DNA from: Schaalia sp. lx-260
GTDB taxonomy: Bacteria > Actinomycetota > Actinomycetes > Actinomycetales > Actinomycetaceae
Direction of reading: 5' to 3'
Assembly: GCF_021083645.1 (NCBI RefSeq)
Contig: NZ_JAJNRQ010000004.1
Coordinates: 124,001-188,000, forward strand
Length of the DNA stretch: 64,000 nucleotides
The notes beneath the pieces are model-generated. The model ran no database searches. It saw only the letters and a program-made list of their open reading frames with translations, and was not told the DNA's origin. Below, piece by piece: positions 59,899 to 64,000 of this stretch; the stretch's first letter is position 1, and each line of letters begins with the position of its first letter. The position numbers and the translations under genes are program-made.

Positions 59899-60048
59899 GT
59901 ACTCATTCTCCCAGAATCTGTAAGACACTTCCCTTACACACAAAGCCATTTCGCATCGCTTTAATACAGCTCACATTCCCTGTAAAAACAGGAACACATA
60001 TGTTCCACAGTGAACGTTCCTCCTTTGGCTTTAGGCACACATTCTTGC

Positions 60049-60060
60049 TACGGTCATGGC
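60049..60060 (+). promoter_or_regulatory. leaderless-type -10 box for the SAHH-like gene
   Basis: TACGGT (60049-60054), six bases, then GTG 60061 in frame. This decides for 60061 over the in-frame GTG at 60010. Confidence 0.45.
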
Positions 60061-61737
60061 GTGTCACTTCCACGCTTATCTTCCACAGTTGGAGCAATCC
60101 CAACTCCACACCCGCATACATCAGCTTCTGGGCGCGTAGCACAGGTCCTCCTACGCACGTGGGCTGCCGCTACGAACCTTCTGATCTGCGGAAGACGTTT
60201 CCTCCTCCTGACACCGCCCGAATCTGAGCAAACGAATTATCAGGGATACGTGCCTATTGCGGATGCCCTTGACGATCTGCTCACAGGTTTAGGGGCCCAT
60301 GCGCATCACGGGCACGGCCTCAATGATGCCCCACTGCCACTTGCGCACTACGCAGCTATTTTCGATTTCACGGGCCTTATAGAAAAACATCCTGAAACTA
60401 CTGTCGTACACGCTCACTCTACGACGGATATCCATGTCATCGGCCCTGATAATACTGAATTACAGGATCCTCACAGCTCTTGTCCTGCCAGCGCTCAGGC
60501 ACGTATCGCTTGGGCGCGAGCGCATATGCCTGTCACAACTGCTGCCGTTCAGCGTTTAGCTGAGCGGGGGACCTTAATGGATCAACGTATTGGATTGTCG
60601 CTGGTCCTTGAACCTAAAACGGCTGTTCTTGCGCTGCTCCTTCATGAGGCTGGTGCTACGGTCAGTGTTTTTGGTCATGCTGATGAAATCCGTGATGATG
60701 TTGCGCACTACCTGCGTCATCAGGGAATACCTGTCTACGGGTATGCGCAGATGAGCGTGCAAGAGGAAAAACATGCCGCTGTCGATTTTCTTTCTCAGCA
60801 GCTCACAGTCCTATTGGATGATGGGTCACATCTCATTCGGATGGCCCATGAGGACGCGTACGCGCCTGTTGCTTTACGGCACATGATTGGTGCAGCGGAA
60901 GAAACAACTTCCGGTTTGCGTCCTTTGAGGATTATGGAACGCGATTCCGCTTTGAAAATACCTGTTGTTGCCAGTAATGATGCACGATCGAAAACACTTT
61001 TCGATAATGCGTATGGGACAGGGCAGTCCTGTCTCTTTACCATTATGGATCTACTGGATGCGAACCATGAGGGGTTACATATGGGTGGCCTGCATGTGCT
61101 CGTTATTGGTTATGGTGACGTAGGGCGAGGCTTTGCGCGCCTTATCCGTGCTTTCGGTGCCAAAGTAACGATCTGTGATACGGATTCAGTGCGCCTTCTT
61201 CAAGCGTATATGGATGGATATGAGGTATGTATTTCACCTGATGCGGTAGCTGAAAATATGCAGTGGATTGTGTCGGCTACTGGAGTACGTCATACCATCA
61301 ACAGTTCTGTACTTGCTTGCGCACCTGATGGCTGTGTCCTTTCGGTGATCGGTGGTGTCGCACAGGAAATCGCGTTAGAGGAAGCCATTGCAGCAGGTGC
61401 ATCATGGGAGCCTACGGGTGATCGGGCTGTGGATATTCTGCGTTTTGCTGATGGTCGTGGACTGAAAGTTATGGATAAGGGCGGGTGTATTAATTGCACA
61501 GCCGGTGAAGGTAATCCTATAGAAATCATGGATATGTCATTTGGTGTCCAAACAGCGGCGGTGGAATATTTACTTACCGGTATGAATGCGCGAGAGTCTC
61601 GTTTGCATGCTCTCCCCGCTACGCTCGATCATGGGATATCTCAGATGGCTCTTAAGTTTTTTGCTCCTAGCGCTTCTGTTTTATCTGATTTTTCACTCAA
61701 ACATGATGCTGAGGGCCGCGATACTTTACGGACGTGA
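60061..61737 (+). CDS. S-adenosylhomocysteine hydrolase-like protein (S-inosylhomocysteine hydrolase type?)
   Basis: A 558-residue NAD-dependent enzyme of the adenosylhomocysteinase superfamily with an extra N-terminal region of about 150 residues. Core motifs: LVLEPKTAVLALLLHEAGAT, LTVLLDDGSHL, AEETTSGL, SNDARSKTLFDNAYG (both catalytic Lys and Asp) and the NAD loop VIGYGDVGRGFARLIRAFG. It departs from true SAHH. The substrate motif HxTx(E/Q) is replaced by VLE, as in the HxE subgroup but with His lost. The NIGHFD histidine is replaced in SVIGGVAQEI. The C-terminal KPDHYRY is absent. SAH hydrolysis is therefore doubtful. An amidohydrolase follows, which suggests a deaminated substrate (S-inosylhomocysteine) or another nucleoside thioether; this is inference. 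Confidence 0.75.
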   Translation: MSLPRLSSTVGAIPTPHPHTSASGRVAQVLLRTWAAATNLLICGRRFLLLTPPESEQTNYQGYVPIADALDDLLTGLGAHAHHGHGLNDAPLPLAHYAAIFDFTGLIEKHPETTVVHAHSTTDIHVIGPDNTELQDPHSSCPASAQARIAWARAHMPVTTAAVQRLAERGTLMDQRIGLSLVLEPKTAVLALLLHEAGATVSVFGHADEIRDDVAHYLRHQGIPVYGYAQMSVQEEKHAAVDFLSQQLTVLLDDGSHLIRMAHEDAYAPVALRHMIGAAEETTSGLRPLRIMERDSALKIPVVASNDARSKTLFDNAYGTGQSCLFTIMDLLDANHEGLHMGGLHVLVIGYGDVGRGFARLIRAFGAKVTICDTDSVRLLQAYMDGYEVCISPDAVAENMQWIVSATGVRHTINSSVLACAPDGCVLSVIGGVAQEIALEEAIAAGASWEPTGDRAVDILRFADGRGLKVMDKGGCINCTAGEGNPIEIMDMSFGVQTAAVEYLLTGMNARESRLHALPATLDHGISQMALKFFAPSASVLSDFSLKHDAEGRDTLRT

Positions 61738-61830
61738 GTATTTTTTCATACTTCCCGTCCCTGTGAAACAGGTCTTTTGGGTGCGAGCGCACAGCAACAA
61801 AAGCCATGTATCGTTTTACACTCATACACG

Positions 61831-63261
61831 ATGATGTTCACACACAGAAAGCCTTCACTTGTGAATACTTCCTCCGTATCTGAACGTAGTCAGGTGCCAG
61901 CTAATGTCCATCTGTGGTCCGCTGATCTTGTTGTCCCTATTACCGCCCCTTCTGTCCTTGGGGGGGCTGTTGCCGTATTAAATGGCCGTATTGAACATAT
62001 TGGGTCACGCGATTGGGTTATCGCCACTTTACGTGAGCGCGGTATGACGTACACGGAAACTCATGTTCCTGGTGTCCTGTTACCTGGCTTTGTGAATGCG
62101 CATACTCATTTGCAGTACACGAATATGGCTGAGGTGGGGTTGCGTCAGTATGATGGTTTCCCTTCGTGGATGGCCGCATTTGATGCTATTTACGATGCGG
62201 GGCCTTTAGATTGGGAGACTTCCGCAGCACAGGGTGCCGAGTATATGCTTCGTTATGGAGCTACGTGTGTTGCTGACGTGGTAACGGACCCTGAAGCAGC
62301 GAGCGCCCTCCATGATGCGGGGCTGCATGGCGTGGCCTACTGGGAGGTCATGGGTTATTCAAATGAGGAGTGGGCGCAGCGCGGTGTTAGTTCTGTCCAT
62401 TCGGCCCTTGAAAAAATGCCGACACCCCCTGCGATTGGGATATCACCTCATGCTCCGTATTCTTTAGAAGTTGCTCCCCTGCTGGAAATACCTGATTTAG
62501 CGCGCCGTCGTGGTTTACGTTTGCATATTCATTTAGGTGAGGCACAGATGGAAGCCCGTTGGGATGATGTGGAAGGTGGCGCGGCTTTAGCAGATTTGTG
62601 GCGCAATGAAAAATCGGCTTCTTTTACTTCCATACGTCAAGCTGGTGTTGGTTTTTCTGCAACTGAATTTGTCGATCAGTTAGGGGTTCTTGGCCCTGAC
62701 TGTCATATTGCACATGGCGTGTATATGACTGCGGATGATCGTCGTCGTTTGCGGGCGCGTTCAACAGCTGTTGCTTTGTGTCCGCGTTCCAATGCTGTGA
62801 TTGGTTTGGATGAGCCTCCTGTGGCGGCGTATTTGAGTGAGGGGAATCTAATTGCTGTCGGTACGGATTCTCTGTCGTCTTCGCCTAGCCTCGATATTTT
62901 GGAAGATGTAGCGCTTTTGTATGATATTGCTCGTCGTCAAGGGTATGGAAGTTCAGATTTAAGTCGGCGCTTGTTACAAGCTGCCACGCTGGGTGGGGCA
63001 ACAGCTCTTGGTTTAGCGACCGGACAGCATCGTGTAGGGCAGCTTCAAGCGGGCGCGTTGGCTGATATGGTGGTAGTTGATGTGCCTGTCACAGATGTGA
63101 TGAGCACTATCGAGTGTGTGGTGCGTGAAGGTGCTGGACGTCAAGTAGCAACAATCATTGAGGGACAGTTGCGTTATGCGGCCACAAATTTTCCTCATGA
63201 TGATGTTGCAGGTCATTCTGCGGATTCTTCAGTTTTTCCTACGCATACGGTGAAAGGGTGA
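61831..63261 (+). CDS. amidohydrolase family protein (SAH/MTA or aminofutalosine deaminase-like)
   Basis: A 476-residue metal-dependent amidohydrolase of the ATZ/TRZ-DadD group, which includes deaminases of S-adenosylhomocysteine, methylthioadenosine and aminodeoxyfutalosine. Metal ligands are visible in LLPGFVNAHTHLQYTNMAEVG (HxH), LRLHIHLGEAQMEARWDD (His and Glu), CHIAHGVYMTADD (His) and IAVGTDSLSSSPSLDIL (Asp). The composite N- and C-terminal beta domain is complete (LADMVVVDVPV). ATG 61831 is preferred to the GTG at 61777: a TANNNT box, TACACT, lies eight bases upstream. The gene lies between the SAHH-like gene and a cupin, all in one direction, suggesting a joint pathway. Confidence 0.82.
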   Translation: MMFTHRKPSLVNTSSVSERSQVPANVHLWSADLVVPITAPSVLGGAVAVLNGRIEHIGSRDWVIATLRERGMTYTETHVPGVLLPGFVNAHTHLQYTNMAEVGLRQYDGFPSWMAAFDAIYDAGPLDWETSAAQGAEYMLRYGATCVADVVTDPEAASALHDAGLHGVAYWEVMGYSNEEWAQRGVSSVHSALEKMPTPPAIGISPHAPYSLEVAPLLEIPDLARRRGLRLHIHLGEAQMEARWDDVEGGAALADLWRNEKSASFTSIRQAGVGFSATEFVDQLGVLGPDCHIAHGVYMTADDRRRLRARSTAVALCPRSNAVIGLDEPPVAAYLSEGNLIAVGTDSLSSSPSLDILEDVALLYDIARRQGYGSSDLSRRLLQAATLGGATALGLATGQHRVGQLQAGALADMVVVDVPVTDVMSTIECVVREGAGRQVATIIEGQLRYAATNFPHDDVAGHSADSSVFPTHTVKG

Positions 63262-63270
63262 GGCTTTATC

Positions 63271-63726
63271 ATGTCTGCGGGTTCTCATATTTCTTCTGCA
63301 CGTGTCCGTGATCTTGCGCGTCTGCATGATCTTCAACCTCATCCAGAAGGCGGCTGGTATAAACGCACGTGGACTGCGCCAACACGTGTGGAAACAGCGC
63401 GCGGCAGCCGGGCAACAGCGTCAGCGATTATTTTCTTACTGGATCAGGATGAAGAAGCTGCTTGGCATGTGGTCCTCTCAGATGAACTGTGGTTGTGGCA
63501 TGGCCCAGGCCGTTTAGAGATTCATCGGGGAGGCACCGGTGACTTTCCTCAAAAAGATCCTGACCCTGTGGTTTTGTCAGGTGAAGATGGGAATTTGCAG
63601 GTGTTAATTCCTGCGGGTACATGGCAGCGCACTTTCGCTCGTGACGACGTGACTTTTGCCACCTGTATTGTTTCTCCTGAGTTTTCTTTTGATGATTGGA
63701 CTCTTGCTCACAGCGCAGATAAATAG
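63271..63726 (+). CDS. DUF985 family cupin
   Basis: A 151-residue single-domain cupin of the DUF985 family. Seen are the HDLQPHPEGGWYKRTWTAP opening, the strand ASAIIFLLDQDEEAAWHVVL, the core DELWLWHGPGRLEIHRGG and the late LQVLIPAGTWQRTF, then TFATCIVSPEFSFDDW. Members bind a metal or sugar-like ligand; activity is mostly unknown. TGAGG lies six bases before ATG 63271 and only nine bases separate it from the amidohydrolase, so they are co-translated. Confidence 0.9.
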   Translation: MSAGSHISSARVRDLARLHDLQPHPEGGWYKRTWTAPTRVETARGSRATASAIIFLLDQDEEAAWHVVLSDELWLWHGPGRLEIHRGGTGDFPQKDPDPVVLSGEDGNLQVLIPAGTWQRTFARDDVTFATCIVSPEFSFDDWTLAHSADK

Positions 63727-63963: not shown

Positions 63964-64000
63964 ATGACTCGCTTGAAAACTTTCTCTGCCCTCGCTGCTG
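63964..64000 (+). CDS. start of an exported protein, truncated by the window end
   Basis: Twelve codons are visible: MTRLKTFSALAA. A positively charged start and an Ala/Leu run point to a signal peptide. AGGA precedes the ATG by about 8 bases. It may be a solute-binding lipoprotein, but nothing else can be seen. Confidence 0.5.
   Translation, partial: MTRLKTFSALAA

Follow-up and report, generated by a model that had tools for sequence, protein, structure and literature searches.

A candidate salvage operon for a 5'-modified adenosine in Schaalia, centred on a divergent SAHH-family protein and its linked amidohydrolase

We analysed a 64,000-nucleotide stretch of DNA from Schaalia sp. lx-260 (the window) and focused on a group of plus-strand genes at its end. 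Open reading frames and Pfam matches above cut-off confirm the cluster named in the original prediction, an SAHH-like gene followed by an amidohydrolase and a cupin. The first gene encodes a SAHH-family protein, here named B-type (60010–61737; 575 aa from a GTG at 60010), which is recognized by Pfam (AdoHcyase, 61 bits; AdoHcyase_NAD, 82 bits), motifs, tree position and fold; the original prediction used the in-frame GTG at 60061 as its start. The amidohydrolase (61777–63261; Amidohydro_1, 120 bits) likely starts at ATG 61831 or 61834, and Pfam, family models, a tree and metal-site residues place it on the aminofutalosine-deaminase branch. The third gene is a DUF985 cupin (63271–63726; Cupin_5/DUF985, 105 bits). 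Gaps of 39 bp between the SAHH-like and amidohydrolase genes and 9 bp between the amidohydrolase and cupin genes, all on the plus strand, suggest a single transcript for the three. The original prediction missed the importer that follows the cupin. A SBP_bac_3 solute-binding lipoprotein gene begins on the same strand (63964–64000) and continues past the window end, with the permease and ATPase of this ABC importer downstream, outside the window (L067:8997-10627). About 4 kb past the importer genes, on the opposite strand, lie genes for a Pfs-like nucleosidase and LuxS. A search for riboswitches and other known RNAs upstream, both here and at 20 related loci, found none.

The SAHH-like and amidohydrolase genes travel together. 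In a whole-protein search of 35 genomes of the genus, independent of the peptide patterns described below, both genes are present in the same 23 genomes and missing from the same 12; across 213 genomes of the wider family, close relatives are restricted to the genus, plus one broken copy elsewhere. A wider scan with two peptide patterns, limited to a single genome for each species, found 71 loci in Schaalia/Actinomyces, Bifidobacterium, Microbacterium, Leucobacter, Mycetocola, Mycobacterium, Nocardia, Propionibacteriaceae and Rhizobiales, among others. Two thaumarchaeal loci (L169 and L170) hold a different SAHH pair and no linked amidohydrolase, and are excluded from the B-type counts. In the other 69 loci, all bacterial, where gene calls are open reading frames rather than curated genes, the amidohydrolase is always on the same strand as the SAHH-like gene (69/69) and lies within 600 bp of it in 56. 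Conserved linkage was one of the points on which the original prediction was to be judged, and it held throughout; together with the identical presence and absence, it indicates that the pairing is not due to chance. The cupin had been proposed as a third player and does adjoin the pair, but it is present in only 44 of the 69 loci and is thus accessory. Importers, assigned by their proximity to the SAHH-like locus, are of the SBP_bac_3-type ABC class in 48 loci, sugar-type ABC in 8 and ECF in 6, with none seen in 7.

The amidohydrolase contains the expected HxH, H225, H252, H310/H313 and D364 residues. Four family models match it below their cut-offs: TRZ/ATZ (115 bits), aminofutalosine deaminase (110), 5'-deoxyadenosine deaminase (89) and MTA/SAH deaminase (44). 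Because the aminofutalosine deaminase model scores above the latter two and the tree agrees, DadD or MTA/SAH deaminase is not the best match, and the DadD-type assignment made originally is imprecise. In the tree, the 69 SAHH-linked amidohydrolases form a clade beside 16 homologues, 13 of which adjoin MqnC and UbiE. The two groups have metal ligands and many invariant positions in common, and the window protein resembles aminodeoxyfutalosine deaminase (MqnX), its nearest clade, in its metal site (HxH, H, H, D) and in nearly all invariants. It differs from MqnX in its SAHH-like partner, in the lack of menaquinone genes and in one column, where SAHH-linked proteins have Tyr139 and 14 of the 16 in the MqnC-linked group carry Arg. 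The enzyme could be a plain aminofutalosine deaminase of menaquinone synthesis in an incidental neighbourhood, as the 110-bit match and the MqnC/UbiE-adjoining outgroup would allow. We consider this very improbable, since the SAHH-linked clade is separate, the SAHH-like linkage recurs in all 69 loci, and family searches found neither MqnA nor MqnD in the organism's own genome; the last result led us to reject a menaquinone/futalosine role. The natural reading is an enzyme that deaminates 5'-extended adenosines and has a new substrate; it probably descends from aminofutalosine deaminase or is its sister.

We then compared the B-type protein with human SAHH residue by residue. The NAD-binding loop (GYGDVGRG, 61108–61131) is present in the ORF translation, and the K-x-x-x-D motif (60991–61005) supplies the equivalents of Lys186 and Asp190, which serve the redox step. 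Asp131 is kept within DDGSHLIR (60817–60840), and the equivalents of D131, E156, K186, D190 and N191 are retained in all 70 B-type proteins. Counting seven residues on from the first D of DDG, one reaches an Arg that is invariant in B-type proteins only. In the motif H-x-T/E-x-E/K, replaced here by VLEPK (60604–60618), the E and K of HxExK (human T57/E59 positions) are present in 70/70, and the His (human His55) is V in the window protein. Among the 70, this His is V in 50 and I in 20, a count that is not unbiased because one of the two peptide patterns included VLEPK; the 20 proteins with I came through the other pattern, and the G, N and R replacements fall outside both. The G-H-F molecular gate is replaced by GGV (61351–61359), so that the equivalent of His301 is G in 70/70 and F302 is kept in none of the 70. 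The original motif readings (VLE, conserved K186/D190, loss of the NIGH histidine and of the C-terminal K/Y tail) were right by this comparison. A further loss had escaped them: GNP replaces GHP (61510–61518), and the His353 equivalent is N in all 69 proteins with a letter at this position.

B-type proteins form a single clade (support 100/99; 70 proteins in a tree of 89 rows), set apart from canonical SAHH, a Rhizobiales A paralogue and the thaumarchaeal pairs. The predicted structure of the window protein is confident (pLDDT 92.1, pTM 0.91), and its core superimposes on P. furiosus SAHH with bound inosine (7r37) with a Z of 40.6 and an rmsd of 1.6 over 392 residues. The NCBI model NF004005 (adenosylhomocysteinase) matches B-type at 308 bits (cut-off 275), but this database name is probably wrong for these proteins.

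Enzymes with HxExK prefer S-inosylhomocysteine (SIH) and use the E and K of the motif to contact hypoxanthine at N1 and O6 (PMC10978960). The retained E-x-K therefore supports the base-recognition half of the proposed likeness to the SIH subgroup, a likeness that fails at the His of the motif. SIH-preferring SAHHs (M. jannaschii, P. furiosus and T. maritima) share with B-type the fold (Z about 41), the NAD and redox residues, the E-x-K pair for hypoxanthine, a short C-terminus and a deaminase in the genome. B-type differs in having V/I for the H of HxExK, GG for GHF, GNP for GHP, the extra invariant Arg, a decayed N-terminal SAHH domain and an operon with importers. In published SAHH structures the gate His lies in contact with the O5' atom of inosine (PMC10978960), and neither of the 5'-site histidines, H55 and H301, has a kept equivalent in any B-type protein (0/70).

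These residues bear directly on whether the operon carries out true salvage of S-adenosylhomocysteine (SAH), in which SAH would be deaminated to SIH and B-type would hydrolyse SIH to inosine and homocysteine. The E-x-K motif typical of SIH-preferring enzymes (PMC10978960) fits this route, the amino-acid-class SBP_bac_3 importer adjoining in 48 of the 69 loci would suit SAH, and a Pfs-like nucleosidase gene is found close to the operon both in this genome and in three Bifidobacterium loci. We nevertheless regard SAH salvage as unlikely. Both 5'-site histidines and the gate are missing in 70/70, and AgmF cannot do without the corresponding H56 and H299 (PMC8599513). The own genome, in which a separate Pfs had been suggested as something to look for, already has LuxS and a Pfs-like gene to handle SAH. 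That route has no chemistry in common with the operon and proceeds by depurination, then LuxS. Canonical SAHH also occurs alongside B-type in 10 of 20 other sampled genomes, which led us to reject B-type as a substitute for it there. The lost histidines, the LuxS and Pfs-like genes and the co-occurring canonical SAHH together make SIH itself a doubtful substrate. Of the two-step path originally proposed, deamination followed by processing is upheld by the linkage and the E-x-K pair, whereas SIH hydrolysis as the second step is not; the alternative offered with it, a new nucleoside-thioether pathway, is the better fit.

The retained redox residues and lost 5' acid/base residues would also fit an enzyme that stops earlier, either an AgmF-like dehydratase or lyase giving a 4',5'-unsaturated nucleoside or a 3'-oxidoreductase or epimerase using the redox half only. 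AgmF, the angustmycin dehydratase, is a precedent: a SAHH relative that has gone from SAH metabolism to another nucleoside and does not accept SAH (PMC8599513). However, it depends on both histidines, which it retains, its substrate is angustmycin C, and no deaminase partner is described in the part of its report considered here, whereas the B-type proteins (70 compared) have V/I and G in place of His56 and His299. The inosine hydrolase found in some clusters further suggests ordinary ribose as the end product, and we think an early-stopping enzyme unlikely. Judging by its residues, the 5' chemistry of B-type would be unlike that of any characterised SAHH-family member we found. Loss of three conserved active-site histidines, together with B-type's own decayed N-terminal domain, could instead indicate a pseudoenzyme that only binds NAD or nucleoside, as a sensor or as a partner of the amidohydrolase. 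The invariance of Lys186, Asp190, Asp131, Glu156 and Asn191 would be unexpected for a dead enzyme, and with the strict co-occurrence of B-type and deaminase it makes such a role quite improbable.

The unusual N-terminal extension noted in the original prediction is real. The fragment (60136–60480, plus strand; motif AQVLLRTWAAATNLLICGRRF) resembles a SAHH NAD domain without GxGxxG, is conserved within the genus and is modelled with pLDDT about 91–97. In Mycobacterium, Nocardia and Microbacterium, a separate upstream gene of 215–290 residues (some longer by open frame) takes its place, and the B-type protein directly downstream of it has no extension of its own. In hhalign, the fused extension (window protein and relatives) matches the separate gene family at 98.3% (E 1.9e-14), and profile comparison puts that family on the SAHH NAD domain (95.5%). 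A model of the separate protein (pLDDT 80.6) finds SAHHs alone among its best 50 PDB matches and aligns to nearly the whole SAHH chain with a Z of about 16. In two Rhizobiales loci this position upstream of B-type is held by a full-length SAHH, the A paralogue, with all histidines present (HLEAK, GHH, GHP). A mis-called start was rejected as an explanation, given the conservation, the confident fold and the separate gene elsewhere. From these sequence comparisons we read the extension as a decayed member of a tandem SAHH pair, probably filling the role that the adjacent subunit has in the SAHH dimer; the direction of decay is inferred, since similarity and position, rather than a dated tree, connect the small gene with the A paralogue.

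Neighbouring genes offer clues to the substrate. An inosine-uridine nucleoside hydrolase (IU_nuc_hydro) accompanies the Rhizobiales and Microbacterium clusters and is absent from the Schaalia/Bifidobacterium operons. Microbacterium clusters also encode an NtaA/DmoA-family monooxygenase (458 bits, cut-off 280), and one Mycobacterium cluster encodes an SsuD-like monooxygenase (434 bits, below its cut-off of 518). Both belong to sulfur-associated families, a hint that the substrate is a sulfur compound.

The deaminase partner, the E-x-K pair, three unrelated importer types and the occasional inosine hydrolase suggest uptake and salvage through an inosine form, and we propose with moderate confidence that the genes form an operon, linked to an importer, that salvages a 5'-modified adenosine. 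The tight linkage of deaminase and SAHH-like gene, with the kept E-x-K, makes deamination first, then processing of the inosine compound, the best reading. To judge from gene order, the ABC importer (ECF or sugar-type ABC in other lineages) would take up the nucleoside, and the amidohydrolase, by its family, would turn adenine to hypoxanthine with the 5' substituent retained. B-type may then bind the inosine form through the E-x-K pair; its conserved residues suggest that tightly bound NAD would oxidise C3' using Lys/Asp, and that Asp would take the 4' proton with release of the 5' substituent in an NAD-dependent C5' elimination. With both 5'-site histidines and the gate missing, the reaction would have to depart from that on SAH or SIH either in its leaving group or in what becomes of the 4',5'-ene; the leaving group may need no protonation or be bulkier than homocysteine. 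In some lineages, inosine-uridine hydrolase would cleave the inosine, and the group set free may be converted further by FMN-dependent monooxygenases. Several observations count against this salvage reading: the His loss could mean no 5' chemistry whatever, importers of different classes could serve other solutes, and the Schaalia/Bifidobacterium operons are without the inosine hydrolase.

More tentatively, B-type may represent a new SAHH catalytic class, acting without 5' histidines on a 5'-modified inosine other than SIH, and not on SAH, with a precursor that is imported, and derived from a heteromeric pair whose first subunit decayed stepwise. Such a series would run from the full-length Rhizobiales protein through the shrunken gene of Nocardia, Mycobacterium and Microbacterium to the ~110-residue fused domain of Schaalia, in which the decayed first subunit would have become a structural partner. 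The locus would then be a clean example of a SAHH paralogue decaying to a partner domain. A published model of Bifidobacterium takes SAH to homocysteine by way of a gene named adenosylhomocysteinase (PMC8660834); if that gene is B-type, this step would be doubtful there. For oral and gut actinobacteria, the operon would define a testable nucleoside-scavenging pathway.

In Schaalia suimastitidis the amidohydrolase is split into two overlapping frames (locus L040, 8109-9556), and in a second genus (G184) both the SAHH-like gene and the amidohydrolase are split (L066, 6370-9459); these splits represent either frameshifts, decay or sequencing error. At three Bifidobacterium loci (L146, L150 and L161), the gene for the DUF985 cupin precedes that for the SAHH-like protein rather than following the amidohydrolase gene. 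Records L111, L112 and L124 are titled Xylanimonas cellulosilytica 352_XCEL, Sanguibacter keddieii 250_SKED and Trueperella pyogenes 331_TPYO, respectively; they group with Schaalia and are part of the same genus set in this analysis, and their titles look wrong.

Among relatives of the amidohydrolase, Actinomycetia MAGs (L090-L105) keep the gene order MqnC, aminofutalosine-deaminase-like, UbiE and geranylgeranyl-reductase-like, a block that adjoins nuo genes.

A Rhizobiales operon carries SAHH paralogues A and B, both full-length (L136, 5959-8429), together with genes for a LacI-type regulator, an inosine hydrolase, a sugar ABC importer and the amidohydrolase. Agrococcus and Mycetocola have, on top of canonical SAHH and the B-type protein, an additional SAHH-like clade (L198, 706-1881; L199, 700-2079) with the motif HLEPKT or HVEPKT and with D131 replaced by N, D190 by E (human SAHH numbering) and GHP by GNS. 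Thaumarchaeal MAGs contain a tandem SAHH gene pair (L169, 5941-8484; L170, 761-3259), in which the histidine of the HxT motif is replaced by Q in the second protein (QLTPET); these tandem SAHHs are an independent paralogous pair.
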